Positions 19,567-60,437 of a DNA stretch of 64,000 bases are shown here, in pieces. How positions within the stretch are numbered: the first letter of the stretch is position 1; every line of letters starts with the position of its first letter. The notes under the pieces were generated by a model. That model was not told the origin of the DNA. It did not search any database and saw only the letters and a program-made list of their open reading frames with translations. The stretch lies in contig OX359198.1 in NCBI GenBank assembly GCA_947172415.1, forward strand, positions 3,255,401 to 3,319,400, in the 5' to 3' direction. A program made the position numbers and the translations under genes. Origin of the DNA: Chondrosia reniformis (taxonomy: Eukaryota > Porifera > Demospongiae > Chondrillida > Chondrillidae).

Positions 19567-19575
19567 ACATAGTTG
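19560..19575. other. Head-to-head orientation switch of the 13-bp array
   Basis: To the left every unit reads ACTAGTACATACA; to the right every unit reads TGTATGTACTAGT. The change takes place within ATGTACAT (19563-19570), an 8-bp perfect palindrome. Up to here the left matches 12600 (AACTAATACATGTA) and from AGTTGAATGTAC the right matches 36420, so the junction is defined to a few bases. Confidence 0.9.
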
Positions 19576-20092
19576 AATGTACTAAATTTATGTACTAGTT
19601 GTACGTACTAGTAAGTGCTTGCATGTACTAGTTGTATTAATTAGTTGTTTGTAGTTATATGTACTAGTTGTATGTGCTAATTGTGAATATATAATTGTTG
19701 TATGTACTAGTCATATGTACTAGTTGTATATACTAATGGTATGTACTAGATGTATGTACTAGTAGGTAATTACATGGCATGGTTGAATGTACTAGTTGTT
19801 TATACTAATTTTATGTACTAGCTCCATGTACTAGTTGTATGTACTAGTCGTAAGTAGTATTTGTTTGATCTAGTTTTATGTAGGTATGTGTACCACTGCT
19901 ATGTACTAGTTACATTTACTAAGTATAGTTACTGATTGTATGTACTACTTGTATATACTAGTGGTGTGAATTTCTGTATGTACTAGTTACATACACTAGT
20001 TGTAGTTACTGGTCGTATGTACAAGTTGTTTGTACTAGATTTATGTACTAATGTATAGATATATGTAGTAGTTATATGTACTAGATCTATGT
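19571..20092 (-). repeat. 13-bp array, right arm, start
   Basis: TGTATGTACTAGT units, the reverse complement of the left arm. It aligns with 36420-36939 of the next HOR unit with few differences. Confidence 0.93.
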
Positions 20093-20222
20093 ATCTTTGT
20101 AAAGATTCATTGGCAGAGAGAAGAGTCCACTAAACTTTGTTTCTAGACACTCCCAAAGTCGCAAGATAAACCGTTACAAAGATAAGTTCGGCGCATTTAG
20201 AAGATTCCATTCTAGATCTGTG
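20093..20222. other. HOR island (iii), copy 1
   Basis: About 130 bp of non-13-bp sequence beginning ATCTTTGTAAAGATTC. ATCTTTGTAA (20093-20102) and TTACAAAGAT (20174-20183) are inverted repeats, suggesting a small inserted element. It is repeated at 36940, 46190 and 55428. No coding potential or known RNA fold was recognised. Confidence 0.85.
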
Positions 20223-23200
20223 TACTAGGTTTATGTACTAGTTGTATGTACTAGTTGTATATATGTTCTAGTTAGTAGTTGTATGTGCTAGTTATATGCA
20301 CTAATTGTATGTACTAGCTGTATGTACTAGTTGTATGTATTAATTGTATGTATTAGTAACAATCTGAATTTACTAGTTGAATATACTAGTTGTATGTAGT
20401 AGTTGTGTGTAATTGTTGTATGTACTAAGTATATGTACTAGTTTTATGTACTAATTTTATGTCCTAGTTGTATGTGTACTAGTTCTATGTACTAGCTGTA
20501 TTCTCTAGTTGTATGTACTACTAGTAACAATCTGTATTTACTGATTGTATGTACTATTTGTATGTACAAGTTGTCTTTGCAAGGTATTTGTACTGGTTAT
20601 ATGTACTAGTTCTAAATACTACTTATAGAACTAGTTGCATGCACTATTTGCATTTAGTAGTTGTATGTATATATATACTAGTAACCAGTTGTATGTTGTT
20701 AGTTGTACGTACTTGTTGTGTGTACTAGTTGTAGGAACTAGTCGTATGTACTAGTTGTATGAACTAGTAATTAGTTGTATATAATAGTTAGATATACTAG
20801 CTGTATGTACTACTAGTAACAATCTGTATTTAATACTTGTATGTACTAATTGTATGTACAAGTTGTAAGAGCAAGTTATATATACTAGTTATATGTACCA
20901 GTTCTATGTACTACTTATATTTACTAGTTGTAGTTACTAGTTGTATGTACTAGTTGTATGTACTAGTAACTAGTTGTATGTATTAATTGTATGTACTAGT
21001 TATATGAACTAGTTGTAAGAGCTAGTTATTGTATGTACTAGTTGTATGTACTAGTAACTAGTTGTATGTACTAGTTAGATATACTAGTTGTATGTACTAG
21101 TTCCTAGTTGTATGTACTAGTTAGATATACTAGTTGTATCTACTAGTTGTTTATAATAGTAACTAGTTGTATGTACTAGTTAGATATACTAGTTTTATGT
21201 ACTAGTTGTTCGTACTAGTTAGTTGCATGTCCTAGTTGTAGATAGTAGTTGCATGTACTAGTAACTAGTTGAATGGACTAGTTATATGTACTAGTGGTAT
21301 TTACTAGTTGTATACACTAGTTGTATATACCATTTCTATGCACTATTTCTATGTACTAGTTGTAATAGTTGTATGTACTAGTAACTAGTTGAATGGACTA
21401 GTTATATGTACTAGTGGTATTTACTAGGTGTATGAAGTAGTTGTATGTATTAGTAACAATAAGTATTTAATACTTGAATGTACTAGTTGTATGTACTAGT
21501 TAGATGTATTAGTTGCATGTACTAGTTGTATGTACTATTTGTATGTACTATTAGCCATCTGTGTGTACTATTTGTATGCCCTAGTTGTATGTATTAGTTG
21601 TATGTACTAGTTGTATATACAAGTTATATGTACTGGCTATATGAACTAGTTCTATATAATACTTATTGTACTAGTTGTTAGTACTAGTTGTATGGAGTAG
21701 TTGTATGTTCTATTTGTGTGTAGTAGTAACTAGTTGTATGTACTAGTTATATGTACTCATTGTATGTACTAGCTGTATGTACTAGTTGTATGTACTAATT
21801 GTTTATTATACTTGTATGTAAAAGTTGAATTTACTAGTAACTAGTTGTATATACTACTTGTAAGTACTAGTTGTGTGTACATGTTATATGTACTAGTTGT
21901 ATGTACTAGTTATAGTAATAGTTGTACGTACTAATTGAATGCACTATTTGTATATTCTAGTTGTATGTACTAGTTGTATGTAGTAGTAACTAGTTATATG
22001 CAGTAGTTATATGTACTATTTGTATATAATAGCTTTATGTACTAGTTGAATGTACTAGTAACAAACTGTATTTACTACTTGTATATACTAGTTGTATGAA
22101 CTAGTTTTATATAGTTATATGTACTAAATATATATTCTAGTTATATTTACTAATTGTAGTTACTAGTTGTAGGGACTAGTTGTATGTACTAGTTGTATGT
22201 ACTAGTTAGATATACTAGTTGTATATACTAGTTCTATATATTAGTCCTATGTACTAGTTATATCTTCTAGTTGCATGTACTAGTTGTATGTACTAGTAAC
22301 TAGTTGAATGTACTGGTTATATGTAGTAGTTGTATGTACTAGTTGTACAAACTAGTTGTATGTACTAGTAACACTCTGCATTTAATACTTGTATGTCCTA
22401 GTTGTATGTACTAGTTGTATTTACCAGTTGTAGTTACTATTTGTATATACTAGTTGTATGTACTACTTGTATGTACTACTTGTATGTACTAGTTGTGTGC
22501 AATTGTTCTATGTATACTTATTTGTACTAGTTGTATATACTAACTTTTAGGTACTAATTATATGTACTAATTGTATGTACTAATTGTGTGTAATAGTTGT
22601 GTGTTCTAGTTATTTGTACTAGTTATTTGTACTAGTTGTAGTTATTAGTTGTAACAATTGTATGTACTAGTTGCTTTTATTAGTAACTATCTGTATGTCC
22701 TAGTTGTATGTACTAGTTTTATGTCCTAGTTGTAGGACTAGTTGTATGTACTAGTTGTATGTACTGGTAGTTGTTCTAGTTTATGTACTATTTATATGAA
22801 CTAGTTATATGTATATGTATTGGTTAAATATAATAATTGTATGTACTAGTTATATGTACTCGTTATATGTACTAGGTCTATGGACTAGTTGTAGTTCTAG
22901 TTGTATTTACTAGTTGTATGTACTAGTCGTATGTACTAGTTGTATGTACTAGTTGTTTGTACTCATTGAATGTACTATTTAAATGTACAATGCAGTTGTA
23001 TGTACTAGTTGTAAGTACACACTAATAGTTGCTTGTTCTAGTTGTATGCACTAGCATTTGTTGTATTTACTAGTTGGAGGTTCTATTTGTATTTACTCAA
23101 TTGTAAGTAATGGTTGCATGTTGTAATTATTTGTAGTAATTTTAGGTACTACTTTTGTGCTAGTTGTATGTTCTGATCGTATGTAATAGTTTTATGTACT

Positions 23201-24980
23201 TGTTATATATATTAGTTGCATGTATAAACTAGTTCTATGTACTAGTAGTATGTTCTAGTTTTATGTATTATATATAAGTACTAGTTATATGTATAAGTAC
23301 TGGTTGCATACACCAGTTGGATGTATTAGTTATATGTACTAGTTATATGTACTGGTCATATGTACTGGGTATATGTACTAGCTCTATGCCTTAGTGTTAG
23401 TACTAGTTGTATGTACAAGAAACTATCTGTATGTCTTAGTTGTATGTACTAGCAGGCTAGTTGTATATAGTTATATGTACTAGTTGTATGTACTAGTTAT
23501 TATGTACTAGTTGTACCTACTAGTTCTATGTACTAGTTCTATGTACTAGTTCTATGTATTAGTAACTATCTGGATGTACTAATTGTAGGCACTAGAAGTA
23601 TGTACTAGTGGTATATAGGTATACGTTCTACTTGTATGTTCTAGTTGTACGTAATTGTTGTATGTACTATTTATATTTACTAGTTGTATGTACCAGTTGA
23701 AGTCCTAGTTGTATGTACTAATAACTAGTATTTGTACTAGTTATATGTACAAGTTGTATGTACTAGTTGTATGTACTAGTTATATGTACTAGTGGTATTT
23801 ACTAATTGTATGTACTAGTTGTATGTACTAGAAACAATCTGTACTTACTAGTTGTATGTACTAGTTGTATATACTAGTTCTAGGTAATAGATCTATGTAC
23901 TAGTTGTATATACTAGTTCTAGGTGATAAATCTATGTACTAGTTGCAAATACTTGTTGTATGTACTAGTTGTATGTACTAGTTTTATATACTAGTTCTAG
24001 GTAATAGATCTATGTACTAGTTCTAGGTAATAGATCTATGTACTAGTTGTATATACTAGTTGTATGTACTAGTTGTATGTACTAGTAACTAGTTGTATGA
24101 GCTAGTTATATGTACTAGTTGTATGTACTACTTGTATGTACTAGTTGTATTTACTGGTTACATGGACTAGTTGTATTTACTAGTTATATGTACGGGTTAT
24201 ATGTACAAGTTCTATGTATTAGTTCTATGTACCAGTTGTATGGACTAGTCGCATGAACTAGGCGTATGTACTAGTTGTATGTACTAGTTGTATGTACTAC
24301 TTGTATGTACTAGTTGTATGTACTAGTAAGTCAATGTATGTACTAAATGTGCATAGCGGATGACTGTAGTAGTAACCAGTTGTATGAAATAGTTGTATGT
24401 ATTAGTTCTTTGTACTAGTTATAGTAATAGTTGTTCGTATTAATTGAATGTACTATTTGTATATACTAGTTGTGTGTACTAGTTGTATGTGCTATTAACT
24501 AGTTGTATGCCATAGTTATATTTACTATTTGTATATAGTAGTTTAATGTACTATTTGAATGTACTAGTAACAATCTGTATTTACTACTTGTAAATACCAA
24601 CTGTATGTACTAGATGTATGTAATTATATGTACTAAATATATATACCAGTTATATTTAGTAGTTGAAGTGACTAGTTGTATGTACTAGTTGTAGGGACTA
24701 GTTGTATGTGCTAGTAACTAGTAGTATGGGCTAGTATCTAGTTGTATATGTACTAGTTAGATATACTAGTTGTATGTACTAGTAACTATCTGTGTGTACT
24801 AATTTGTTGTACTATTTGTGTGTACTAGTTGTATGCAGATATATGTACTACTTTTATGTATTAGACGTGTGAAATGGTTGTATGTACTTATTATATTTAC
24901 TAGTAGTAGTTATTAGTTGTATGTACTAGTTGTATTTACTAGTTGTATGTTCTAGTTGTATATACTAGTTCCATATACTA
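20223..24980 (-). repeat. 13-bp array, right arm
   Basis: About 4.8 kb of TGTATGTACTAGT units with the right-arm signature CTAGTAACTAGTTG and periodic AGTAACAATCTGTATTTACT. No gene is visible. Confidence 0.95.
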
Positions 24981-25260
24981 GACCAGAGATCATCCACAAA
25001 ATCAGCTTCAGAGAAATGCTTAAATGATTGAACATCGAGCAGGTTTAGTGACAGGAAGGGCAAGATCTAGAAGGATAGGAAGATGATTGGAGATAACACA
25101 GTCAAGTACCATTGATTTGGAGATTGGGACATCGGGCGTGGTAAGGAAGAAGTCAATGAAAGAATTGGAAGATTCAGAGATTCTTGTAGGCTGGGAGATA
25201 GGTTGAATTAAGGAGTGGAAACTAGGAAGCCATACAAAAGTTTAGTGTTAGCTTTCGCCA
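24981..25260 (-). pseudogene. HOR island (i), copy 1: LINE endonuclease fossil
   Basis: Translated on the minus strand, the island reads LIQPISQPTRISESSNSF, then IDFFLTT, then VLDCVISNHLPILLDLALP. This is the C-terminal pattern of an apurinic-type endonuclease domain of CR1/L2/Jockey-like non-LTR retrotransposons (family pattern: QPTR-TESS--IDHIFTN---V--G-(I)SDHLPI). The catalytic SDH is SNH here. A frameshift separates an upstream LLYGFLVSTP segment from this frame, and an in-frame stop follows. It covers only about 90 codons, with no reverse transcriptase nearby, so it is a dead fragment captured by the array and copied with the HOR. Confidence 0.75.
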
Positions 25261-25654
25261 AGTACTAGTTGTATGTACTAGTAAGTAGTTGTATGTAGTA
25301 GTTATATATACTAATTTTATGTACTAGCTGTATATACTAGTTCTATGCACTAGTTGTATGTTATAGTTGTATGTACTAGTTGTATGTACTAGTTATTTGT
25401 ACTAGATGTATGTACTAGTTGGATGGAATAGGTGTAAGTAATAGTAACAATATGTATTTACTAATTGTATGTACTAGTATGTACTAGTTGTATGTAGTTA
25501 TATGTACTAATTTTATGTACTAGTTGTGTGTAATTGTTGTATGTACTAGTTATATGTACTAGTTGTATGAAATAATTTTATGTACTAGTTGTATGTACTA
25601 GTAAGTAGTTGTATGAACTAGTTGTATGTACTAGTAAGTAATTGTATGTACTAC
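25261..25654 (-). repeat. 13-bp array between islands (i) and (ii), copy 1
   Basis: About 390 bp of TGTATGTACTAGT units with no coding content. The same spacer recurs in the later HOR units without length change. Confidence 0.92.
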
Positions 25655-25662
25655 GCATGTGT

Positions 25663-26768
25663 AACATGTCCACAAATTTCCCATTTTGTAAATCGTCTTA
25701 TTAGCGCTTTCAGAGGTGTCACATTCCAGGCGGAAGTGTCTCTAGCATGTGACCTGCACGTGAACCGAAGCACCAGCCACTGAAACGTCACGAGCCATCA
25801 CTAGTCGTTACCATGTTAAATTATCAATTGTGAAAACTTATGAGCAAATTATATAGTATAGTGGAGGAAGGCCAACGACGGAGGAAGGCCAAAAAAGGCC
25901 TACGTGACCGAAACATTCTATTTTTCTTTTGATTATACTACGTTAATAATCAAAGGAAGAATAGAACGTTTTTCTTTTGATTATACTACGTTAATAATCA
26001 AAAAAGAATAGAACATTTCTGTCACATAAGCCGTATTATAATAGTTGAGGAATTGAGGCTTACGTGACCGAAACGTTCTATTTTCTTTTGATTATACTTC
26101 ATTAATTGCTCATACATTTTCGCCATTGATAATTACGTAGATATTAGTAGACATGCATTATGCTTACGGTTTCCACTTACCTCTTACAACAACAAAAAAC
26201 TCCGATCAAAGAAACTGTATCGCTACCGAGAAGCCTTACTTGACATATCAACTTCGGAAGTCTAATGTTTGTACCAAATATTTGGGTGCCTGTTAAACGT
26301 CATAAGACGTCATTTTATGATGGCTCAACTATACTACTAATTTTGGCTGACAATCACGTGACAATACCATTACTTGAAGGAGAAGAGACAAATGGAAAAC
26401 GAACCGATTATTAGACAGTGGAGAATTGTATATCTAACCATTTTTTGACATCAATCTCTTCAGTAAGTAACAGCCTAAAAGTTGTATGTATACTCCTGGA
26501 ATATTCCCTTGTTTAACTGAGATATGAAGTACTAGAGGCGCCTGATAAAGGTACGAAAATACGTTTTCAATTATAATTCAAAAACTAAAGGGAATTTAAA
26601 AGGAATATACATACCATTGTTAGATATCATTATCCTTCATAGATTGGTGTCACCATTTATTCTATATTCGTATTTTCCACTATCTAATAAAACATTTTTG
26701 GGGATTTGGCACCTATCACTTACGGCCGCTTAAGTTCTCCTTTAAGACTGCAATCGTGACGCTGTTGT
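25663..26768. mobile_element. HOR island (ii), copy 1, right end missing
   Basis: Starts AACATGTCCACAAATTTCCC as in the three later copies and follows them to GACTGCAATCGTGACGCT, then departs at about 26769 into the transposase element. Because the right terminal repeat is absent, this copy is broken. It contains the hairpin tandem near 25897-26032. No protein is encoded. Confidence 0.8.
25897..26032. repeat. Tandem hairpin units inside island (ii)
   Basis: Two tandem units of about 55 bp each contain TTTGATTAT and ATAATCAAA arms around ACTACGTTA. The whole is framed by an outer inverted pair, TACGTGACCGAAACATTCTA and TAGAACATTTCTGTCACATA. A third partial unit follows near 26060-26100. The later HOR copies have the same structure. 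Confidence 0.8.
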
Positions 26769-27107
26769 TTTTAATCAGCATCAGAATATTAATATTGTGT
26801 TTTATGTTAATTTGATTGTTTAATAGAACGTACAGGTTTAGCTTTTCTTCATTGCAAAGGTATAAGCCTGCTCTTTCTTCTCAAAGTTTGTTTTAAACTT
26901 TCCTTTAAAGGAATAGTGAGATATTCGCAACTAAGCGTTGGCCGCGTACTCGGAAACAAAACACTTTATTCTTTTCTTCGCGTACGTGAAAGACTTTTCA
27001 GTAATGAGAAGAAAAGAACACAGTATTTCGGCCTGCGCTTTTTTAGGTTAATAAAGCATGACAAACACTCTGCACTATGTTTAAACTTGAACTTAAAGTA
27101 GTAGGTA

Positions 27108-28964
27108 ATGGCTAACAAGTCCCCTTGGCATCGTAAGAGATATGGCTTGAACAAAGTTATGGAAGTGAACAGGGCAAAGATTCGGCGTAATAATGAAGAT
27201 ACTGACTCTGAGCTTGAAAGCCTTGTTATGGGAGCTCAAACCGAAAGTGAAGCAGCTTCTGTAACACCTACTTTAGCGGGAACTTCCACTCCCAATCCTA
27301 TTTGCTCAGAGGAAGCCAGCCTGACAATCCCATTCGCTGCAGATTATGGCACTGATGACAGTGATGAAGCCGAAGATGATGAGGTTAATGATCCTGACGT
27401 GGTAGGGGGAGATCTTACAGTGGATGATATGTTTAGAGAATGGGCAAATTCACTCCAAGCCGATGATTTGCGTATGTTGACAATGCTTCTGATCCATATT
27501 CTTGTTTCAGTTTTAAGCTGGAAAGTATTGCCTGCTGCAGAGTTCGTAGGTAAAATTGTTGGACACAGTGAAAGAACTATTCGTTCTTGGAGGCGCTCTT
27601 TTTTTTACAAAAATGCATTTTCTTTTCCTCAATCTCTAAAAGGGAAATATACACGTTATTGTATATTAGACGAGGAAGATGTAAGAAGTCGAGCTTTGAA
27701 TTGGCTGAGGAAAGAGAGTGGTAAGAAGAAAGGTCCTAAATTGACAGTTCATCGTTTCCATCAGTGGATTAAGTCTGAATTGTTAGCCACCTCATCACTA
27801 CCGGAAAATGCTCCCAAGTCAATATCATTGCGAAGTGCTTATAGATGGATGCATTTTTATGGGTTCAAATATGAACATTACAGGAAAGGGTTGTACCATG
27901 ACGGCCACGAACGAAATGATGTTGTAACCTATAGGAAAGAATACTTAAGAAGACTTGAGATCTTGCAAGCAACCCACAAACCTCCACCCCTACCATCCGA
28001 TGGTGAAGCATCATTGCCAATTGGCAATTCCAGTGCATCTAAGGAATTGGTATTAATATACCATGATGAATCTGTGTTTCATGCAAATGAGGATCATGCA
28101 TATTCCTGGGCAGAATCAGGCAGAAGAATTATTAAACCGAAGGGACAAGGACAAGGTTTGATGGTTAGTGACTTCATTGATGAACACCAAGGCTACCTTA
28201 GACTGACAGTAAACCAATTGAATGCTGCTAACTATACAGGGCCACCACAGGCAATGCAAATTCTGAAAATAGGTGCTAATGCAGAGGGATTTTGGACAAA
28301 TGACAAGTTCATGAAGCAAGTGGAAGTTGCAGCTGACATAGCAACTGTAAAATATCCCAAAGAAAGCCATACAGTAGTCTTTCTATTTGATCAGAGCAGT
28401 AATCACCGAGCTTTTGCAGAGGATGCATTAAATGTAAAGGCTATGAATGTTCAATTTGGTGGGCAGCAGCCAAGGATGAGAGACACATTATGGAATGGCA
28501 AACCTCAAAAGATGGTCTTACCAAATGGACTACCAAAAGGCCTAAAATTAGTGTTGCAGGAGAGAGGAGTAGATACTACTGGTATGAAGAAGGATGAAAT
28601 GCAACGGAGGCTAGGGAACATGGACGACTTTAAGTATGAGAAGAGTAAGGTTGAAAAATTTCTAAATTCAAAGGGTTATCGCGTGTACTTCATCCCAAAG
28701 TATCATTGTGAAATTAACCCCATTGAGAGGGTATCGGGAAGGGCTAAACTTTTTACAAGGACCCATTGCGATTATTCATTTCCACAATTAGAGAGAACAG
28801 TTAAGCCAGCATTAGATTCTGTTACTTTGGATGACATCAGAAAATACTATAGAAAAGTTAGAGAATACCTGGAAGCATACCGAATGGGAAAAAATGGCGC
28901 AGAAGCAATTGATGAAGTTAAACTATACAAATCTCACCGTAGAGTTTATCCAACTGAATCATAG
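27108..28964 (+). CDS. DDE transposase, Tc1/mariner-IS630-like, intact
   Basis: A 618-residue, single-exon, uninterrupted frame starting at ATG after an AT-rich leader. Residues 1-105 are basic then acidic and low in complexity. Residues 125-200 look like a helix-turn-helix region (AAEFVGKIVGHSERTIRSWR), and 211-275 are a second DNA-binding-like region (LRSAYRWMHFYGF, then GLYHDGHERNDVV, a motif I associate with this transposase group). The catalytic core shows HDES (D320), LFDQSSNH (D428) and EINPIER (E540), matching a DDE triad. The D428-E540 gap is about 111 residues, far longer than in classical Tc1, and holds a SAP-like segment (LPKGLKLVLQERGV to MQRRL, about 474-502). It would cut and paste its own element's ends in the nucleus. 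All catalytic residues are present, so recent activity is possible. Superfamily confidence is good; exact family is unsure. Confidence 0.88.
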   Translation: MANKSPWHRKRYGLNKVMEVNRAKIRRNNEDTDSELESLVMGAQTESEAASVTPTLAGTSTPNPICSEEASLTIPFAADYGTDDSDEAEDDEVNDPDVVGGDLTVDDMFREWANSLQADDLRMLTMLLIHILVSVLSWKVLPAAEFVGKIVGHSERTIRSWRRSFFYKNAFSFPQSLKGKYTRYCILDEEDVRSRALNWLRKESGKKKGPKLTVHRFHQWIKSELLATSSLPENAPKSISLRSAYRWMHFYGFKYEHYRKGLYHDGHERNDVVTYRKEYLRRLEILQATHKPPPLPSDGEASLPIGNSSASKELVLIYHDESVFHANEDHAYSWAESGRRIIKPKGQGQGLMVSDFIDEHQGYLRLTVNQLNAANYTGPPQAMQILKIGANAEGFWTNDKFMKQVEVAADIATVKYPKESHTVVFLFDQSSNHRAFAEDALNVKAMNVQFGGQQPRMRDTLWNGKPQKMVLPNGLPKGLKLVLQERGVDTTGMKKDEMQRRLGNMDDFKYEKSKVEKFLNSKGYRVYFIPKYHCEINPIERVSGRAKLFTRTHCDYSFPQLERTVKPALDSVTLDDIRKYYRKVREYLEAYRMGKNGAEAIDEVKLYKSHRRVYPTES

Positions 28965-28980
28965 ACTTTCTATTTACTAT

Positions 28981-28986
28981 ATTAAA
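28981..28986 (+). promoter_or_regulatory. Candidate polyadenylation signal ATTAAA
   Basis: ATTAAA lies 17 bases after the transposase stop codon. The region is very AT-rich, so chance occurrence is quite likely. Confidence 0.3.
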
Positions 28987-29391
28987 TGCATTTGTTCACT
29001 TTGTTATTGATATATACATAATATTACCGTATTTGGGGATAATTCAAGATGTCAAACAAATTGCTAAATATTTCATGTTACAAAGAAATTTTGAAAAATT
29101 CGCTTCTACAGAGTTGTTTTATATAGATTGAACATTCATTAAACTGAATTTAAAAAAAATTGTAGAAGATAACTAAAGAAATTTCTTTTTGAAATTTAGT
29201 TTCTGCCATTTTTGATTACGCAATAATGCGTTGCCATGGAAACAAAAGTCGCAACTAAATTAACACTTGATCTATTTTACATCATTTTGGATAAATTTAG
29301 AAGTGTATCTATTACCAAATTTGAATAAGAGCCTATAAAATGGATCAATCTATCTGAAAAAAAAAGGAAATTTATGCTGGCAGGCACTATA

Positions 29392-32300: not shown

Positions 32301-33375
32301 TGTATGTACCAGTTGAAGTCCTAGTTGTATGTACTAATAACTAGTATTTGTACTAGTTATATGTACTAGTTGTATGTACTAGTTGTATGTACTAGTTATA
32401 TGTACTAGTGGTATTTACTAATTGTATGTACTAGTTGTATATAATAAAAACAATCTGTACTTACTAATTGTATGTACTAGTAACTAGTTGTATGAGCTAC
32501 TTATATGTACTAGTTGTATGTACTACTTGTATGTACTAGTTGTATTTACTAGTTACATGGACTAGTTGTATTTACTAGTTATATGTACGGGTTATATGTA
32601 CAAGTTCTATGTATTAGTTCTATGTACCAGTTGTATGGACTAGTCGCATGAACTAGGCGTATGTACTAGTTGTATGTACTAGTTGTATGTACTACTTGTA
32701 TGTACTAGTTGTATGTACTAGTAAGTCATTGTATGTACTAGATGTGCATAGCGGATGACTGTAGTAGTAACCAGTTGTATGAAATAGTTGTATGTATTAG
32801 TTCTTTGTACTAGTTATAGTAATAGTTGTTCGTATTAATTGAATGTACTATTTGTATATACTAGTTGTGTGTACTAGTTGTATGTGCTATTAACTAGTTG
32901 TATGCCATAGTTATATTTACTATTTGTATATAGTAGTTTAATGTACTATTTGAATGTACTAGTAACAATCTGTATTTACTACTTGTATATACCAACTGTA
33001 TGTACTAGATGTATGTAGTTATATGTACTAAATATATATACCAGTTATATTTAGTAGTTGAAGTGACTAGGTGTATGTACTAGTTGTAGGGACTAGTTGT
33101 ATGTGCTAGTAACTAGTAGTATGGGCTAGTATCTAGTTGTATATGTAGTAGTTAGATATACTAGTTGTATGTACTAGTAACTATCTGTATGTACTAATTT
33201 GTTGTACTATTTGTATGTACTACTTGTATGCAGATATATGTACTACTTTTATGTATTAGACGTGTGAAATGGTTGTATGTACTTATTATATTTACTAGTA
33301 GTAGTTATTAGTTGTATGTACTAGTTGTATTTACTAGTTGTATGTTCTAGTTGTATATACTAGTTCCATATACTA
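29392..33375 (-). repeat. 13-bp array, right arm
   Basis: About 4 kb of TGTATGTACTAGT units, closely matching 20731-24980 of the previous unit and 37577-42472 of the next. No gene is visible. Confidence 0.95.
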
Positions 33376-33655
33376 GACCAGAGATCATCAACAAAATCAG
33401 CTTCAGAGAAATGCTTAAATGATTGAACATCGAGCAGGTTTAGTGACAGGAAGGGCAAGATCTAGAAGGATAGGAAGATGATTGGAGATAACACAGTCAA
33501 GTACCATTGATTTGGAGATTGGGACATCGGGCGTGGTAAGGAAGAGGTCAATGAAAGAATTGGAAGATTCAGAGATTCTTGTAGGCTGGGAGATAGGTTG
33601 AATTAAGGAGTGGAAACTAGGAAGCCATACAAAAGTTTAGTGTTAGGTTTCGCCA
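33376..33655 (-). pseudogene. HOR island (i), copy 2: LINE endonuclease fossil
   Basis: Nearly identical to 24981-25260 (for example CATCAAC in place of CATCCAC). It has the same minus-strand endonuclease remnant with SNH in place of SDH. Confidence 0.75.
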
Positions 33656-49300: not shown

Positions 49301-51577
49301 GTTGCTTTTATTAGTAACTATCTGTATGTCCTAGTTGGTATGTACTAGTTTTATGTCCTAGTTGTAGGACTAGTCGTATGTACTAGTTGTATGTACTGGT
49401 AGTTGTTCTAGTTTATGTACTATTTATATGAACTAGTTATATGTATATGTATTGGTTAAATATAATAATTGTATATACTAGTTATATGTACTCGTTATAT
49501 GAACTAGGTCTATGGACTAGTTGTAGTTCTAGTTGTATTTACTAGTTGTATGTACTAGTCGTATGTACTAGTTGTATGTACTAGTTGTTTGTACTCATTG
49601 AATGTACTATTTAAATGTACAATGCAGTTGTATGTACTAGTTGTAAGTACACACTAATAGTTGCTTGTTCTAGTTGTATGCACTAGCATTTGTTGTATTT
49701 ACTAGTTGGAGGTTCTATTTGTATTTACTCAATTGTAAGTAGTGGTTGCATGTTGTAATTATTTGTAGTAATTTTAGGTACTACTTTTGTGCTAGTTGTA
49801 TGTTCTGATCGTATGTAATAGTTTTATGTACTTGTTATATATATTAGTTGCATGTATAAACTAGTTCTATGTACTAGTAGTATGTTCCAGTTTTATGTAC
49901 TATATATAAGTACTAGTTATATGTATAAGTACTGATTGCATACACCAGTTGGATGTATTAGTTATATGTACTAGTTATATGTACTGGTCATATGTACTGG
50001 GTATATGTACTAGCTCTATGCCTTAGTGTTAGTACTAGTTGTATGTACAAGAAACTATCTGTATGTCTTAGTTGTATGTACTAGCAGGCTAGTTGTATAT
50101 AGTTATATGTACTAGTTGTATGTACTAGTTATTATGTACTAGTTGTACCTACTAGTTCTATGTACTAGTTCTATGTACTAGTTCTATGTATTAGTAAATA
50201 TCTGTATGTACTAATTGTAGGCACTAGAAGTATGTACTAGTGGTATATAGGTATACGTTCTACTTGTATGTTCTAGTTGTGCGTAATTGTTGTATGTACT
50301 ATTTATATTTACTAGTTGTTTGTACCAGTTGAAGTCCTAGTTGTATGTATTAATAACTAGTATTTGTACTAGTTATATGTACTAGTTGTATGTACTATTT
50401 GTATGTACTAGTTATATGTACTAGTGGTATTTACTAATTGTATGTACTAGTTGTATATACTAGAAACAATCTGTACTTACTAGTTGTATGTACTAGTTGT
50501 ATATACTATTTCTAGGTAATAGATCTATGTACTAGTTGTATATACTAGTTCTAGGTGATAGATCTATGTACCAGTTGTAAATACTTGTTGTATGTACTAG
50601 TTGTATGTACTAGTTTTATATACTAGTTCTAGGTAATAGATCTATGTACTAGTTGTATGTACTAGTTGTATGTACTAGTTGTATGTACTAGTAACTAGTT
50701 GTATGAGCTAGTTATATGTACTAGTTGTATGTAGCACTTGTATGTACTAGTTGTATTTACTGGTTACATGGACTAGTTGTATTTACTAATTATATGTACG
50801 GGTTATATGTACAAGTTCTATGTATTAGTTCTATGTACCAGTTGTATGGACTAGTCGCATGAACTAGTCGTATGTACTAGTTGTATGTACTAGTTGTATG
50901 TACTACTTGTATGTACTAGTTGTATGTACTAGTAAGTCATTGTATGTACTAGATGTGCATAGCGGATGGCTGTAGTATTAACCAGAAATAGTTGTATGTA
51001 TTAGTTCTTTGTACTAGTTATAGTAATAGTTGTTCGTATTAATTGAATGTACTATTTGTATATACTAGTTGTGTGTACTAGTTGTATGTGCTATTAACTA
51101 GTTGTATGCCATAGTTATATTTACTATTTGTATATAGTAGTTTAATGTACTATTTGAATGTACTAGTAACAATCTGTATTTACTACTTGTATATACCAAC
51201 TGTATGTACTAGATGTATGTAGTTATATGTACTAAATATATATACCAGTTATATTTAGTAGTTGAAGTGACTAGGTGTATGTACTAGTTGTAGGGACTAG
51301 TTGTATGTGCTAGTAACTAGTAGTATGGGCTAGTATCTAGTTGTATGTACTAGTTAGATATACTAGTTGTATGTACTAGTAACTATCTGTATGTACTAAT
51401 TTGTTGTACTATTTGTATGTACTAGTTGTATGCAGATATACGTACTACTTTTATGTATTAGACGTGTGAAATGGTTGTATGTACTTATTATATTTACTAG
51501 TAGTAGTTATTAGTTGTATGTACTAGTTGTATTTACTAGTTGTATGTTCTAGTTGTATATACTAGTTCCATATACTA
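46319..51577 (-). repeat. 13-bp array with a 928-bp tandem duplication
   Basis: TGTATGTACTAGT units. The stretch from CCATCTGTGTGTACTATTTG at 47271 is repeated from 48199 (step 928 bp), about 47250 to 49105 in total, and is not duplicated in the other HOR units. No gene is visible. Confidence 0.9.
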
Positions 51578-51858
51578 GACCAGAGATCATCCACAAAATC
51601 AGCTTCAGAGAAATGCTTAAATGATTGAACATCGAGCAGGTTTAGTGACAGGAAGGGCAAGATCTAGAAGGATAGGAAGATGATTGGAGATAACACAGTC
51701 AAGTACCATTGATTTGGAGATTGGGACATCGGGCGTGGTAAGGAAGAGGTAAATGAAAGAATTGGAAGATTCAGAGATTCTTGTAGGCTGGGAGATAGGT
51801 TGAATTAAGGAGTGGAAACTAGGAAGCCATACAAAAGTTTAGTGTTAGGTTTCGCCAA
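51578..51858 (-). pseudogene. HOR island (i), copy 4: LINE endonuclease fossil
   Basis: Same minus-strand endonuclease fragment as the other three copies, closest to copy 3. Confidence 0.75.
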
Positions 51859-52259
51859 GTACTAGTTGTATGTACTAGTAAGTAGTTGTATTTAGTAGTT
51901 ATATATACTAATTTTATGTATTAGCTGTATATACTAGTTCTATGCACTAGTTGTATGTTATAGTTGTATGTACTAGTTGTATGTACTAGTTATTTGTACT
52001 AGATGTATGTACTAGTTGGATGGAATAGGTGTAAGTAATAGTAACAATATGTATTTACTAATTGTATGTACTAGTATGTACTAGTTGTATGTAGTTATAT
52101 GTACTAATTTTATGTACTAGTTGTGTGTAATTGTTGTATGTACTAGTTATATGTACTAGTTGTATGAAATAATTTTATGTACTAGTTGTATGTACTAGTA
52201 AGTAGTTGTATGAACTAGTTGTATGTACTAGTAAGTAATTGTATGTACTACGCATGTGT
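51859..52259 (-). repeat. 13-bp array between islands (i) and (ii), copy 4
   Basis: TGTATGTACTAGT units; spacer length is conserved. Confidence 0.92.
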
Positions 52260-53507
52260 AACATGTCCACAAATTTCCCATTTTGTAAATCGTCTTATTA
52301 GTGCTTTCAGAGGTGTCACATTCCAGGCGGAAGTGTCTCTAGCATGTGACCTGCGCGTGAACCGAAGCACCAACCACTGAAACGTCACGAGCCATCACTA
52401 GTCGTTACCATGTTAAATTATCAATTGTGAAAACTTATGAGCAAATTATATAGTATAGTGGAGGAAGGCCAACGACGGAGGAAGGCCAAAAAAGGCCTAC
52501 GTGACCGAAACATTCTATTTTTCTTTTGATTATACTACGTTAATAATCAAAGGAAGAATAGAACGTTTTTCTTTTGATTATACTACGTTAATAATCAAAA
52601 AAGAATAGAACATTTCTGTCACATAAGCCGTATTATAATAGCGGAGGAATTGAGGCTTACGTGACCGAAACGTTCTATTTTCTTTTGATTGTACTTCATT
52701 AATTGCTCATACATTGTCGCCATTGATAATTACGTAGATATTAGTAGACATGCATTATGCTTACGGTTTCCACTTACCTCTTACAACAACAAAAAACTCC
52801 GATCAAAGAAACTGTATCGCTACCGAGAAGCCTTACTTGACATATCAACTTCGGAAGTCTAATGTTTGTACCAAATATTTGGGTGCCTGTTAAACGTCAT
52901 AAGACGTCATTTTATGATGGCTCAACTATACTACTAATTTTGGCTGACAATCACGTGACAATACCATTACTTGAAGGAGAAGAGACAAATGGAAAACGAA
53001 CCGATTATTAGACAGTGGAGAATTGTATATCTAATCATTTTTTGACATCAATCTCTTCAGTAAGTAACAGCCTAAAAGTTGTATGTATACTCCTGGAATA
53101 TTCCCTTGTTTAACTGAGATATGAAGTACTAGAGGCGCCTGATAAAGGTACGAAAATACGTTTTCAATTATAATTCAAAAACTAAAGGGAATTTTAAAGG
53201 AATATACATACCATCGTTAGATATCATTATCCTTCATAGATTGGTGTCACCATTTATTCTATATTCGTATTTTCCACTATCTAATAAAACATTTTTGGGG
53301 ATTTGGCACCTATCACTTACGGCCGCTTATGTTCTCCTTTAAGACTGCAATCGTGACGCTCTTGTAGCCAAGATATTAAGAAAGAATAGCGCTTCAATTC
53401 TATATAACTTGTTTAGTGATACGATGTTTCTAAAGTAAAATAGAATAAATTAAAAAAAGTGTTAGTTAGCGACTTTTATCGAAACTTTCCGGAAGTATGG
53501 ACATGTT
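52260..53507. mobile_element. HOR island (ii), copy 4 (1248 bp)
   Basis: AACATGTCCA at the left, TGGACATGTT (53498-53507) at the right. One base shorter than copy 3 near an A-run. Hairpin tandem and one 17-bp unit are present. Confidence 0.75.
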
Positions 53508-55427
53508 CCACTAGCGTATTTATATTTACTAGTTTTATGTACTAGGTGTATGTACTAATTGTATTTACTAGTTCTATGTACTAGTTGTTTGAACTAGCTG
53601 TATGTAGTTATATGTACTACATGTGTGCACTAGTTGTGTGTAATTGTTTATGTACTAGTTATATATACTAGTTGTAGTTACTAGTTGTATGTACTAGTTG
53701 TATGTAGTAGTTGTATGTACTAGTTGTACGTGCTAGTAACTAGATAATTGCACTAGTTCTATGTACTAGTTCTGTGTACTTGTTTTATGTACTAGTTGAA
53801 AGTACTAGTTCTTTATAAGTTCTGGTTAGTAGTTGTATGTACTAGTTATATGTATAAGTTATATGTACTAGCTGTATATACTAGTTGTATTTACTAGTTG
53901 TATGTACTAGTTGTTTGAACTAGTTTTATGTAGTTTTATGCACTACTTGTTTGTACTAGTTGTGCGAAATTTGTGTATGTACTAGTTACTAGTTGTATGT
54001 ACTAGTTGTTTGAACTAGCTGTATGTGGTTATATGTAGTACATGTGGGCACTAGTTTTGCGAAATTTGTGTATGTACAAGTTATATATACTAGTTGTAGT
54101 TACTAGTTGTATGTACTAGTTGTATGTACTAGTTGTATGTACTAGTTGTAAGTGCTAGTAACTAGATAAATGAACTAGTTCTATGTACTAGTTCTGTGTA
54201 CTTGTTTTATGTACTAGTTGAAAGTACTAGTTCTTTATAAGTTTTATTTAGTAGTTGTATGTACTAGTTATATGTACTAGTTATATGTACTAGCTGTATG
54301 TACTAGTTGTGTTTACTAGTTATATGTACTGGTTGTTTTAACTAGTTTTATGTAGTTTTATGTACTACTTGTTTGTACTAGTTGTGCGAAATTTGTGTAT
54401 GTACTAATTATATTTACTAGTTGTAGTTACTAGTTGTACGCACTAATTGTATGTACTAGTAACAATCTGTATTTTCTAGTGGCACGTGTTAGTTATAGGC
54501 ACTAGTTGTATGAAGTAATTGTATAAACTAAATGTATGTACTAGTAACTATCTGTATTTATTAGTTGTATATATTAGTTGTAAGCAGTTATATTTACTAG
54601 TTGTATGTACTAGTTGTGTGTAATTGTTGTATGGACTAGTTATAAGTATTAGTTCTATGTACTAGTTGTATGTACTAGTAAGTAATTGCATGTACTAGTT
54701 ATATGTACTAGTTGTATGTACTAGTTGTATGTACTAGGTGTATGTACTAATTGTATGTACTAGATGAAAGTACTAGTAACAATCTGTATTTACTAACTCT
54801 TTGTATTATTGTACGTACTTATTGTATATTCTAGTATCAATCTGTATTTAGTGGTGGACATGTACTAGTTATATGTACTAGTTGTATGTACTACTTATAT
54901 GTACTAGTTGAATGTACTAAATTTATGTACTAGTTGTACGTACTAGTAAGTACTTGCATGTACTAGTTGTATTAACTAGTTATTTGTAGTTATATGTACT
55001 AGTTGTATGTGCTAATTGTGAATATATAATTGTTGTATGTACTAGTCATATGTACTAATTGTATATACTAATTGTATGTACTAGATGTATGTACTAGTAG
55101 GTAATTACATGGCATAGTTGAATGTACTAGTTGTTTATACTAATTTTATGTACTAGCTCCATGTACTAATTGTATGTACTAGTCGTATGTGGTATTTGTT
55201 TGATCTAGTTTTATGTAGGTATGTGTACCACTGCTATGTACTAGTTACATTTACTAAGTATAGTTACTGATTGTATGTACTACTTGTATATACTAGTGGT
55301 GTGAATTTCTGTATGTACTAGTTACATACACTAGTTGTAGTTACTGGTCGTATGTACAAGTTGTTTGTACTAGATTTATGTACTAATGTATAGATATATG
55401 TAGTAGTTATATGTACTAGATCTATGT
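53508..55427 (-). repeat. 13-bp array, right arm
   Basis: TGTATGTACTAGT units, the longest version of the island (ii)-to-(iii) spacer. No gene is visible. Confidence 0.94.
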
Positions 55428-55556
55428 ATCTTTGTAAAGATTCATTGGCAGAAAGAAGAGTCCACTAAACTTTGTTTCTAGACACTCCCAAAGTCGCAAG
55501 ATAAACCGTTACAAAGATAAGTTCGGCGCATTTACAAGATTCCATTCTAGATCTGT
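55428..55556. other. HOR island (iii), copy 4
   Basis: Same as 20093-20222, with TTTACAAGATTCC in place of TTTAGAAGATTCC. Confidence 0.85.
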
Positions 55557-58500
55557 GTACTAGGTTTATGTACTAGTTGTATGTACTAGTTGTATATATG
55601 TTCTAGTTAGTAGTTGTATGTGCTAGTTATATGCACTAATTGTATGTCCTAGCTGTATGTACTAGTTGTATGTATTAATTGTATGTATTAGTAACAATCT
55701 GAATTTACTAGTTGAATATACTAGTTGTATGTAGTAGTTGTGTGTAATTGTTGTATGTACTAAGTATATGTACTAGTTTTATGTACTAATTTTATGTCCT
55801 AGTTGTATGTGTACTAGTTCTATGTACTAGCTGTATTCTCTAGTTGTATGTACTACTAGTAACAATCTGTATTTACTGATTGTATGTACTATTTGTATGT
55901 ACAAGTTGTCTTTGCAAGGTATTTGTACTGGTTATATGTACTAGTTCTAAATACTACTTATAGAACTAGTTGTATGCACTAGTTGCATTTAGTAGTTGTA
56001 TGTATATACTAGTAACCAGTTGTATGTTTTTAGTTGTACGTACTCGTTGTGTGTACTAGTTGGAGGAACTAGTCATATGTACTAGTTGTATGAACTAGTA
56101 ACTAGTTGTATATAATAGTTAGATATACTAGCTGTATGTACTACTAGTAACAATCTGTATTTAATACTTGTATGTACTAATTGTATGTACAAGTTGTAAG
56201 AGCAAGTTATATATACTAGTTATATGTACCAGTTCTATGTACTACTTATATTTACTAGTTGTAGTTACTAGTTGTATGTACTAGTAACTAGTTGTATGTA
56301 TTAATTGTATGTATTAATTTTATGTACTAGTTATATGTACTAGTTGTAAGAGCTAGTTGTTGTATGTACTAGTTGTATGTACTAGTTAGATATACTAGTT
56401 TTATGTACTAGTTGTATGTACTAGTTAGTTGCATGTCCTAGTTGTAGATAGTAGTTGCATGTACTACTAACTAGTTGAATGGACTAGTTATATGTACTAG
56501 TGGTATTTACTAGTTGTATACACTAGTTGTATATACCATTTCTATGCACTATTTCTATGTACTAGTTGTAATAGTTGTATGTACTAGTAACTAGTTGAAT
56601 GGACTAGTTATATGTACTAGTGGTATTTACTAGGTGTATGAAGTAGTTGTATGTATTAGTAACAATAAGTATTTAATACTTGAATGTACTAGTTGTATGT
56701 ACTAGTTAGATGTATTAGTTGCATGTACTAGTTGTATGTACTATTTGTATGTACTATTAGCCATCTGTGTGTACTATTTGTATGCCCTAGTTGTATGTAT
56801 TAGTTGTATGTACTAGTTGTATATACAAGTTATATGTACTGGCTATATGAACTAGTTCTATGTAATACTTATTGTACTAGTTGTTAGTACTAGTTGTATG
56901 GAGTAGTTGTATGTTCTATTTGTGTGTAGTAGTAACTAGTTGTATGTACTAGTTATATGTACTCATTGTATGTACTAGCTGTATGTACTAGTTGTATGTA
57001 CTAATTGTTTATTATACTTGTATGTAAAAGTTGAATTTACTACTAACTAGTTGTATATACTACATGTTATATGTACTAGTTGTATGTACTAGTTATAGTA
57101 ATAGTTGTACGTACTAATTGAATGCACTATTTGTATATTCTAGTTGTATGTACTAGTTGGATGTAGTAGTAACTAGTTATATGCAGTATTTATACGTACT
57201 ATTTGTATATAATAGCTTTATGTACTAGTTGAATGTACTAGTAACAAACTGTATTTACTACTTGTATATACTAGTTGTATGAACTAGTTTTATGTAGTTA
57301 TATGTACTAAATATATATTCTAGTTATATTTACTAATTGTAGTTACTAGTTGTAGGGACTAGTTGTATGTACTAGTTGTATGTACTAGTTAGATATACTA
57401 GTTGTATATACTAGTTCTATATATTAGTCCTACTAGTTGTTCAAAATAGTCGTATGTACTAGTAACACTCTGCATTTAATACTTGTATGTCCTAGTTGTA
57501 TGTACTAGTTGTATTTACCAGTTGTAGTTACTAGTTGTATATACTAGTTGTATGTACTACTTGTATGTACTACTTGTATGTACTAGTTGTGTGCAATTGT
57601 TCTATGTATACTTATTTGTACTAGTTGTATATACTAACTTTTAGGTACTAATTATATGTACTAATTGTATGTACTAATTGTGTGTAATAGTTGTGTGTTC
57701 TAGTTATTTGTACTAGTTATTTGTACTAGTTGTAGTTATTAGTTGTAACAATTTTATGTACTAGTTGCTTTTATTAGTAACTATCTGTATGTCCTAGTTG
57801 TATGTACTAGTTTTATGTCCTAGTTGTAGGACTAGTTGTATGTACTAGTTGTATGTACTGGTAGTTGTTCTAGTTTATGTACTATTTATATGAACTAGTT
57901 ATATGTATATGTATTGGTTAAATATAATAATTGTATGTACTAGTTATATGTACTCGTTATATGTACTAGGTCTATGGACTAGTTGTAGTTCTAGTTGTAT
58001 TTACTAGTTGTATGTACTAGTCGTATGTACTAGTTGTATGTACTAGTTGTTTGTACTCATTGAATGTACTATTTAAATGTACAATGCAGTTGTATGTACT
58101 ATATAGTTGTAAGTACACACTAATAGTTGCTTGTTCTAGTTGTATGCACTAGCATTTGTTGTATTCACTAGTTGGAGGTTCTATGAGTATTTACTCAATT
58201 GTAAGTAGTGGTTGCATGTTGTAATTATTTGTAGTAATTTTAGGTACTACTTTTGTGCTAGTTGTATGTTCTGATCGTATGTAATAGTTTTATGTACTTG
58301 TTATATATATTAGTTGCATGTATAAACTAGTTCTATGTACTAGTAGTATGTTCTAGTTTTATGTACTATATATAAGTACTAGTTATATGTATAAGTACTG
58401 ATTGCATACACCAGTTGGATGTATTAGTTATATGTACTAGTTATATGTACTGGTCATATGTACTGGGTATATGTACTAGCTCTATGCCTTAGTGTTAGTA

Positions 58501-60437
58501 CTAGTTGTATGTACAAGAAACTATCTGTATGTCTTAGTTGTATGTACTAGCAGGCTAGTTGTATATAGTTATATGTACTAGTTGTATGTACTAGTTATTA
58601 TGTACTAGTTGTACCTACTAGTTCTATGTACTAGTTCTATGTACTAGTTCTATGTATTAGTAACTATCTGTATGAACTAATTGTAGGCACTAGAAGTATG
58701 TACTAGTGGTATATAGGTATACGTTCTACTTGTATGTTCTAGTTGTGCGTAATTGTTGTATGTACTATTTATATTTACTAGTTGTATGTACCAGTTGAAG
58801 TCCTAGTTGTATGTACTAATAACTAGTATTTGTACTAGTTATATGTACTAGTTGTATGTACTAGTTGTATGTACTAGTTGTATGTACTAGAAACAATCTG
58901 TATTTACAAGTTGTATGTACTAGTTGTATATACTAGTTCTAGGTAATAGATCTATGTACTAGTTGTATATACTAGTTCTAGGTGATAGATCTATGTACTA
59001 GTTGTAAATACTTGTTATATGTACTAGTTGTATGTACTAGTTTTATATACTAGTTCTAGGTAATAGATCTATGTACTAGTTGTATATACTAGTTGTATGT
59101 ACTAGTTGTATTTACTGGTTACATGGACTAGTTGTATTTACTAGTTATATGTACGGGTTATATGTACAAGTTCTATGTATTAGTTCTATGTACCAGTTGT
59201 ATGGACTAGTCGCATAAACTAGTCGTATGTACTAGTTGTATGAACTAGTTGTATGTACTACTTATATGTACTAGTTGTATGTACTAGTAAGTCATTGTAT
59301 TTACTAGATGTGCATAGCGGATGACTGTAGTAGTAACCAGTTGTATGAAATAGTTGTATGTATTAGTTCTTTGTACTAGTTATAGTAATAGTTGTTCGTA
59401 TTAATTGAATGTACTATTTGTATATACTAGTTGCGTGTACTAGTTGTATGTGCTATTAACTAGTTGTATGCCATAGTTATATTTACTATTTGTATATAGT
59501 AGTTTAATGTACTATTTGAATGTACTAGTAACAATCTGTATTTACTACTTGTATATACCAACTGTATGTACTAGATGTATGTAGTTATATGTACTAAATA
59601 TATATACCAGTTATATTTAGTAGTTGAAGTGACTAGTTGTATGTACTAGTTAGATATACTAGTTGTATGTGCTAGTAACTATCTGTATGTACTAATTTGT
59701 TGTACTATTTGTATGTACTAGTTGTATGCAGATATATGTACTACTTTTATGTATTAGACGTGTGAAATGGTTGTATGTACTTATTATATTTACTAGTAGT
59801 AGTTATTAGTTGTATGTACTAGTTGTATTTACCAGTTGTAGTTACTAGTTGTATATACTAGTTGTATATACTACTTGTATGTACTACTTGTATGTACTAG
59901 TTGTGTGCAATTGTTCTATGTATACTTATTTGTACTAGTTGTATATACTAACTTTTAGGTACTAATTATATGTACTAATTGTATGTACTAATTGTGTGTA
60001 ATAGTTGTGTGTTCTATTTATTTGTACTGGTTGTAGTTATTAGTTGTAACAATTGTATGTTCTAGTTGCTTTTATTAGTAACTATCTGTATGTCCTAGTT
60101 GTATGTACTAGTTTTATGTCCTAGTTGTAGGACTAGTTGTATGTACTAGTTGTACGAACTAGTTGTTTTCACTAGTTCTATTTACCAGTTGTAGTTACTA
60201 GTTTTATGGACTAGGGTTATGTACTACTTGTATGTACTAGTTGTGTGTAATTGTTTTATGGACTACTTATTTGTACTAGTTGTAGTTAGTAGTTGTTTGT
60301 ACTACTTGTACTAGTTATATGTATATGTACATATGCAACCAGTCCATATACATGCACTGGTTGCATATGTGCTACTTGTATGTACTAGTTGTATGTACTG
60401 GTTGTATGGACTAGTTGTATTTACTAGTTATATGTAC
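55557..60437 (-). repeat. 13-bp array, end of the HOR
   Basis: Collinear with earlier units until about 59827, then jumps back to sequence matching about 57508 and continues to about 60155, where HOR similarity fades. The expected fifth island (i) is missing. No gene is visible. Confidence 0.9.
60329..60370. repeat. Perfect 15-bp inverted repeat
   Basis: ACATATGCAACCAGT (60329-60343) and ACTGGTTGCATATGT (60356-60370) flank a 12-base loop, CCATATACATGC. For a few units the motif runs in the opposite orientation, a small inversion at the end of the HOR. Confidence 0.9.

Follow-up and report, generated by a model that had tools for sequence, protein, structure and literature searches.

The 64,000-nucleotide stretch analysed here (the window; C10:3255401-3319400) comes from chromosome 10 of the kidney sponge Chondrosia reniformis and carries a higher-order repeat (HOR) of 9.1 kb, in which a 13-bp satellite and three classes of islands are repeated together. 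Our genome-wide comparisons suggest that the window is part of the centromeric domain of this chromosome, that every chromosome has a regional centromere with a nested palindromic core, and that the HOR of the window is pericentromeric; taken jointly, we regard this reading as likely. The central site found on each chromosome, with its nested and mostly mirror-image repeats, is very probably the centromere of that chromosome, judging by its sequence organization.

The genome analysed comprised 117,379,552 bases in 15 contigs, C1 to C15 (C1, 10,409,357 bp; C10, 7,657,449 bp; C13, 6,903,244 bp; C14, 6,754,398 bp; C15, the mitochondrion, 17,451 bp). As given in the genome note for the assembly, odChoReni1.1, there are 14 chromosomes with an N90 of 6,903,244 bp and a mitochondrion of 17.45 kb, assembled as 42 contigs in 14 scaffolds with a consensus quality value (QV) of 69.8; the mean HiFi read is ~12.9 kb (10.31 Gb/0.80 M reads, symbiont reads counted in) (PMC12181767). 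Reversed-pattern controls gave 0 matches for the 34- and 50-base words of the 13-bp satellite, the 42-base word of the 123-bp satellite and the 33-base word of the 145-bp satellite.

RESULTS

A 145-bp satellite core on each chromosome, mostly between inverted arms

For the 145-bp satellite, a 33-base word allowed up to 2 mismatches gave 100 matches, all of which were listed, and all 100 fell at one site per chromosome on 14 of 14 chromosomes, the single conserved site expected of a monocentric satellite centromere. The chance of 14 random sites falling one each on 14 equal chromosomes is 7.9e-6. These sites, hereafter the centres, are located at 0.38-0.55 of the length of their chromosomes. 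The matches span 0.5-1.6 kb. The array of C4 measures 1.9 kb, and that of C10, at least 1.9 kb long, lies ~60 kb to the left of the window, which covers the interval from 60 to 124 kb rightward of the C10 centre.

The 145-bp satellite is bordered by a 123-bp satellite in inverted orientation. A 42-base word of the latter had 84 exact matches, on 14 of 14 chromosomes, and 464 matches (100 of them listed) with at most 1 mismatch. All 64 of the exact matches within 20 kb of a centre, on 12 of 14 chromosomes, lie on the minus strand to the left and on the plus strand to the right. A second 123-bp word gave 276 matches with at most 1 mismatch; the 100 that were listed (C1, C2, C4-C7 and C13) all follow the same mirror rule, by eye. 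Both arms are present near the centre on 9 of 14 chromosomes (C1, C2, C4, C5, C6, C7, C11, C13 and C14). By word matches, the cores are roughly 15-25 kb in size.

Three cores were read directly, one whole and two in part, and the sequences of the C4 and C14 cores contain no N; some cores may hold gaps, since the assembly consists of 42 contigs in 14 scaffolds. The stretch C4:3600001-3616000 runs from the 123-bp satellite on the minus strand (3600917-3608929) through the 145-bp satellite (3608934-3610838), which itself reverses midway, to the 123-bp satellite on the plus strand (3610831-3615407) and then into the 13-bp satellite. This whole core is an 11-kb palindrome at 89%. The C14 core has the same plan and, being cut at both ends of the stretch read, forms a palindrome of at least 13.6 kb at 84%. 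The part of the C10 centre that was read (3193501-3198000) holds the 145-bp satellite to ~3195400, followed by the 123-bp satellite on the plus strand.

The 13-bp satellite surrounds every core

By Tandem Repeats Finder (TRF), the monomers of the 13-bp satellite are about 63-70% alike and the array has 62-63% internal matches; its domains have a G+C content of ~29%. A 34-base word (2.6 monomers) had 1,540 exact matches, and the 100 that were listed all lie in C1:3.82-4.68 Mb or C2:4.81-5.62 Mb. For a 50-base word with 166 matches, the first 100 (C1-C9) fell in one central domain per chromosome, except for an array at C3:7.0 Mb, and a 63-base word with 43 matches, all listed, added domains on C10-C13. 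On C14, 10-kb samples were taken at 20 evenly spaced positions; three of them, consecutive around the centre (3.21, 3.55 and 3.89 Mb), were rich in the satellite, and the other 17 were negative. From the word matches on C1-C13 and the C14 samples, it follows that all 14 chromosomes have a 13-bp domain. Merging by hand the first 100 of the 166 50-base matches with the C10-C13 part of the 43 63-base matches yielded 80 loci, 79 of which lie no farther than 1.3 Mb from a centre, in a zone that covers 31% of the genome; the absence of the satellite outside the domains rests on parts of the match lists. The domain extends up to ~1.2 Mb on either side of the centre. The outlying array, at 7.0035 Mb of C3 and a long way outside the C3 domain, is a small perfect 13-bp array of at least eight monomers, and is the sole outlier among the 100 of 166 matches listed.

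The higher-order repeat of the window

The features of the window are as follows.

1-3443, plus strand: 123-bp satellite array, G+C 45%, recognized by TRF and genome-wide words; an outlying array of the core-arm family
3582-5116, no strand assigned: passenger element of ~1.5 kb with ends CAGTGGAACCTC... / ...GAGGTTCCACTG, terminal inverted repeats by eye
6067-19562, minus strand: 13-bp satellite of reverse polarity (TAGTACATACAAC), without HOR
19562-19563, no strand assigned: flip in the polarity of the 13-bp satellite; candidate inversion breakpoint
19563-26763, plus strand: HOR unit U1, left-truncated; island i 20101-20220, island ii 24982-25262, island iii 25652-26763
26764-29390, plus strand: DNA transposon private to unit 2, ends by eye; open reading frame 27108-28964, 618 aa, DDE_3
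29391-35338, plus strand: HOR unit U2; island ii 33377-33657, island iii 34047-35334; without island i
35339-44416, plus strand: HOR unit U3; island i 36948-37067, island ii 42474-42754, island iii 43144-44414; private insertion 39599-40351
44417-53520, plus strand: HOR unit U4, 9.1 kb, the reference unit; island i 46198-46317, island ii 51579-51859, island iii 52249-53518
53521-60440, plus strand: HOR unit U5, partial, with island i at 55436-55555 but neither island ii nor island iii
60441-61690, plus strand: retroelement-like fragment (by eye) that terminates the HOR block; 219-aa open reading frame 60760-61419
61691-64000, plus strand: 13-bp satellite outside the HOR, median 76% to U4 chunks

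The initial annotation had proposed a HOR on a 13-bp satellite with three classes of islands in fixed order, and both proposals hold, the islands being lettered differently there. Anchors for island i lie at 20103, 36950, 46200 and 55438, for island ii at 24982, 33377, 42474 and 51579, and for island iii at 25662, 34057, 43154 and 52259. The four sets of islands have one orientation and are arranged head to tail in tandem. The spacing from island ii to island iii, previously given as an invariant 682 bp, is 680 bp from our anchors, which differ, in 4 of 4 copies. Consecutive units are 8395, 9097 and 9105 bp apart. The shortest interval is that of unit 2, in which ~2.4 kb of the unit, including island i, is gone and a ~2.6-kb transposon (~26764-29390, by eye) is in its place.

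Units were compared by matching 45 chunks of 200 bp from U4 to the other units and to the neighbouring satellite. Chunk matching was used because global alignment misaligned at indels: whole-unit alignment of U3 and U4 gave 92.1% overall, with 500-bp bins as low as 42.7%, and satellite segments in pairs with U4 came to 88-95%. For the same reason, a strict BLAST of the units at 93% gave one match. Chunks at least 95% identical to U4 numbered 34 of 45 in U1, 31 of 45 in U2, 40 of 45 in U3 and 27 of 45 in U5. The medians of the chunks matching at 90% or more were 98.8-99.5%, whereas the neighbouring 13-bp satellite outside the HOR had 0 of 45 chunks at 95% or more and medians of 74.5 and 76%. 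The copies of the unit are therefore far more alike than the surrounding satellite, and chunk identity and the fixed order of the islands establish the HOR well above chance expectation. The earlier description of the copies as nearly identical stands for their shared parts, with the islands 96.7-100% identical across units; it does not extend to the units as wholes, which differ by indels of 0.2-0.75 kb, a ~752-bp insertion private to U3 and the truncation of U5.

That mobile fragments were amplified together with the satellite, as had been suggested, also agrees with our results. Island iii is a terminal-inverted-repeat element of 1,270-1,288 bp with ends TACGC....GTG.AACATGTCC in the three complete copies; the copy in U1 is incomplete and stops at the transposon. 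Island ii is possibly a fragment of an endonuclease/reverse transcriptase, as suggested by a weak match to PF14529 (E 8.7e-4, below the curated cut-off). Both islands were inserted before the HOR was amplified. The DDE_3 transposon of unit 2, the ~752-bp element of U3 and the retroelement-like piece at 60441-61690 are private and therefore arrived after amplification. The 618-aa frame of the unit-2 transposon (PF13358, E 8.3e-8) is open, so that this insertion is possibly recent. A Pfam search with the 219-aa frame at 60760-61419 found no family above chance. Two copies of an element of ~0.76 kb, 87% alike and on opposite strands, lie at 39599-40351, private to U3, and at 3789-4552, inside the 3582-5116 element with CAGTGGAACCTC-type terminal inverted repeats.

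To the left of the HOR block, the reverse-polarity satellite extends beyond the window to at least C10:3245401. The 123-bp satellite is nearly absent from the kilobase directly left of the window; a decayed short 121-bp array of the same family lies at 8138-8528 of C10:3245401-3255400, inside the reverse-polarity 13-bp satellite. Over the interval from 3.2454 to 3.275 Mb, the right flank of C10 is on the minus strand, as predicted by the polarity rule, and it then flips at position 19562 of the window, with the HOR beyond on the plus strand. An inversion is the simplest reading of this flip. A recent inverted duplication at 19562 was considered and rejected, as the similarity between its two sides is no higher than the satellite background, ~68-72% among the matches listed and 74.5% by chunk matching.

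Copies of the HOR on other chromosomes

A 35-base word of island i, searched through the whole genome with up to 3 mismatches, gave 26 matches, of which 24 lie inside the satellite domains of C1, C2 and C8-C13 (8 of 14 chromosomes) and two, each with 3 mismatches, outside. The island ii word also gave 26 matches, 25 of them in the domains of C1, C2, C5 and C8-C13 (9 of 14 chromosomes) and one, with 2 mismatches, outside. Copies of islands i and ii on other chromosomes are frequently identical letter by letter. Of the 26 matches for each island, 22 are no more than 150 kb away from a centre, in a zone that makes up 3.6% of the genome. Clusters contain 4-5 copies at most and are in tandem on C2, C10 (two), C11 and C13. 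Judged by sequence, the HOR is neither a single genomic unit nor dispersed without tandem arrangement, either of which would have spoken against the initial annotation.

Within 150 kb, 18 of 22 copies of island i and 18 of 22 of island ii are oriented plus to the left and minus to the right of the centre, and the exceptions are those of the window's own block, four per island class. The window block alone would thus break the orientation rule in this zone because of the proposed inversion. Farther out, the island copies at 2.77-2.81 Mb of C8 (2 and 3 matches), 0.31-0.35 Mb left of the centre, are on the minus strand and also break the rule. In that region of C8 (2.741-2.810 Mb, 0.31-0.38 Mb to the left of the centre), a second 123-bp array on the plus strand precedes the minus-strand HOR islands. 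The right flank of a centromere is ordered in this way, and the region is a candidate for a displaced or relict half-centromere.

Divergence was determined over the block of islands ii and iii (1,782 bp) in nine copies from C10, C13 and C2. Among the four copies of the window, the differences are 0.56-0.95%; between these and the copies at C10:3.15 Mb, on C13 (three) and on C2, they are 0.67-1.18%. Differences among all C10 copies are 0.51-0.95%, and those between C10 and C13 or C2 are 0.51-1.18%. As divergence between chromosomes is about that within C10, exchange among C10, C13 and C2 is as recent as local amplification. For the copies compared on these three chromosomes, the earlier suggestion of recent amplification or homogenization is therefore upheld. 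Clustering of the copies by chromosome was not obtained, as the nine-copy tree has no well-supported branch (the best, joining two C13 copies, has 88/87). In a similarity search in which 40 of 269 candidates were scored, the island iii copies next to island ii were 94-98% identical on C11 and ~91% at C5 3.2606, C9 3.7012, C12 3.1958 and C8 3.1697 Mb, the latter an older layer than the copies at 98-99% on C2, C10 and C13.

Candidate centromere proteins

A search with the sponge's own histone H3 gave 20 matches, comprising H3 genes, fragments and seven H3-fold stretches at 2.37-3.00 Mb of C4. The latter are 46-55% identical to H3 (residues 51-133 in six stop-free exons) and one of the seven has two stops; they have the H3 histone fold (PF00125, E 1.8e-22). 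All six stop-free exons have a loop 1 three residues longer than that of H3 and a tryptophan at the position of an H3 phenylalanine, a tryptophan shared with an aligned H3.1/CENP-A chimera, and the six are preceded by a splice-acceptor-like TGCAG. By sequence, these exons are candidates for CENP-A, multiplied on C4.

DISCUSSION

Our results point to one small, conserved and central site on every chromosome of C. reniformis, and we consider it likely that this site is a regional centromere. Several observations weigh against this reading. With the exact 123-bp words used, a single arm was found near the centres of C9, C10 and C12, and no arms were seen adjoining the centres of C3 and C8. Beyond 20 kb from a centre, 12 of 20 exact 123-bp matches follow the mirror rule, and outlying arrays of this satellite occur as far off as positions 2.57 Mb of C3, 2.74 Mb of C8 and 2.78 Mb of C12. 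The polarity of the 13-bp satellite is no more than a tendency, with the rule followed by 18 of 23 loci within 150 kb and by 29 of 57 beyond, and the right 13-bp flank directly adjoining the C4 core has the opposite sign to that predicted. Homogenization of the HOR is not uniform, since island iii is at ~91% on C5, C9 and C12 and at C8:3.17 Mb. In a PDB search with a C4 exon, H3 came first (3.3e-20), followed by the CENP-A chimera (4.1e-20) and cnp1 (4.9e-20), scores that do not separate the two kinds of histone; a six-frame search with the CENP-C profile (PF11699) gave no match, and introns could hide this protein. Short dyads, by contrast, speak for the reading, exceeding a shuffled sequence 4.5-fold in the 13-bp satellite, 7.6-fold in the 145-bp satellite, ~2-fold in the 123-bp arms and 1.1-1.2-fold in two arm samples (one shuffle each), although these counts are not independent because a tandem unit with one dyad repeats that dyad.

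The most serious alternative is that the domain is centromeric but that CENP-A resides on the 13-bp satellite, possibly on the youngest HOR blocks, in the manner of human alpha-satellite HORs, with the palindrome a by-product or a boundary element. The recent homogenization of the blocks on C10, C13 and C2, the proximity of most island copies to a centre (22 of 26 at 150 kb or less) and the richness of this satellite in short dyads are all compatible with such an arrangement. However, HOR islands occur on 8-9 of 14 chromosomes in clusters of at most 4-5 copies, whereas the 145-bp core is present once on each of the 14, and we consider this alternative unlikely, if worth taking seriously. It is less probable still that the domains are heterochromatin serving chromosome pairing or clustering, the active centromere being elsewhere or diffuse (holocentric). 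The failure of the CENP-C profile to find a match would fit this explanation, but a single conserved and always central site per chromosome, mirror symmetry on most chromosomes and the presence of CENP-A-like exons would not.

The single site per chromosome is, taken alone, compatible with another element of this number, such as a meiotic pairing or synapsis centre, the flanking satellite then being ordinary heterochromatin. Known pairing centres, such as those of Caenorhabditis elegans, are located near chromosome ends. A single family of tandem repeats, found on every chromosome and there at one place in heterochromatin, is the usual pattern of centromeres in multicellular organisms (PMC5844345), and a pairing centre thus appears very improbable. 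An artefact of assembly, in which one HOR unit was falsely duplicated in tandem or as a second haplotype, is scarcely credible. Such errors did occur, as the curators removed four haplotypic duplications (PMC12181767). Against this, the copies are 0.56-0.95% apart, the mean HiFi read of ~12.9 kb is longer than the unit and the QV is 69.8 (PMC12181767). Assembly duplication is very unlikely also because U2 and U3 have private insertions (the transposon and the 752-bp element) and because the HOR block is also found on other chromosomes.

If the centromeres are indeed regional with a palindromic core, we would anticipate that a CENP-A-like histone and the kinetochore assemble on the 145-bp/123-bp palindrome and that the 13-bp flank forms pericentromeric heterochromatin. 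The HOR block is a part of this flank that was amplified locally, carrying old transposon insertions along. Unequal exchange in the flank may create such blocks, while exchange and conversion between centromeres may amplify and spread them; the block of the window would have been reversed by an inversion with one end at 19562. A wider proposal is that the centromere is specified by the form of its DNA, i.e., one nested satellite palindrome per chromosome, with a 145-bp core, inverted 123-bp arms and a dyad-rich 13-bp flank, genetically defined in the manner of fission yeast and kept alike by the exchange that also spreads HOR blocks and transposons. We put this forward tentatively, giving it slightly less than an even chance.

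The organization of these sites can be compared with that of known centromeres. Human alpha-satellite HORs have hundreds of copies, their units are far more alike than their monomers, and they are common to nonhomologous chromosomes. The sponge HOR likewise has units more alike than monomers and is present on nonhomologous chromosomes; unlike alpha-satellite, it has a 13-bp monomer, passenger transposons and a handful of copies, and occurs on some chromosomes only. The initial annotation had seen a resemblance to centromeric HOR organization. The centromeric address of the HOR agrees with this, but we rejected the HOR as the centromere array itself: alpha-satellite-type centromeres have long arrays that form the active core on every chromosome, whereas the island ii word is found on 9 of 14 chromosomes, a cluster has at most 4-5 copies and the block of the window lies ~80-121 kb off the C10 centre.

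A closer likeness is to Candida tropicalis and fission yeast. In centromeres of this type, the mid core is nonrepetitive and the region bound by kinetochore proteins measures 2-3 kb, and in C. tropicalis the similarity of cores and repeats between chromosomes has been ascribed to intra- and interchromosomal recombination (PMC4741521). The sponge shares the single site per chromosome, the core flanked by inverted repeats (with both arms on 9 of 14 chromosomes) and the similarity between chromosomes. It differs in that its core is not a nonrepetitive sequence but a 145-bp tandem satellite, with kilobase 123-bp arms and a megabase 13-bp surround, and its CENP-A site is putative. Among animals, the beetle Tribolium madens has putative (peri)centromeric satellites that contain short dyads and whose inverted subarrays range from kilobases to tens of kilobases (PMC13081366), and thus resembles the sponge in combining satellite macro-dyads with short dyads. 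Unlike T. madens, in which major and minor arrays are intermingled over multi-megabase regions, the sponge has three families nested round a single central site. The Drosophila satellites Prodsat and dodecasatellite, with (peri)centromeric monomers of 5-12 bp, provide a precedent for a very short monomer by the centromere (PMC5844345); each of these occurs on some chromosomes only, whereas one 13-bp family is present on all 14 sponge chromosomes.

In the literature searched, judged by title, we found no description of centromeric DNA in a sponge. The word 'centromer' has 0 occurrences in the Chondrosia genome note (PMC12181767). Of three further papers examined at this word, one on Ephydatia names the centromere only for one chromosome that probably split there, one on Oopsacas yields a centriole protein only for the same word, and one on ctenophores as sister group has centromeres placed by Hi-C that belong to unicellular outgroups where the species is named, one figure legend naming none.

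In summary, we provide evidence for a nested, mostly mirror-image arrangement of three satellites at one central site on each chromosome of C. reniformis. If this reading is right, a single species that branches near the base of the animal tree would offer 14 candidate centromeres, whose cores are small enough to be read end to end. It would then become testable whether CENP-A placement in animals is aided by an inverted or dyad form of the DNA, and by what means the centromeres of different chromosomes remain alike. The HOR blocks, with passenger transposons both older and younger than their amplification, may serve as a clock for exchange between centromeres.

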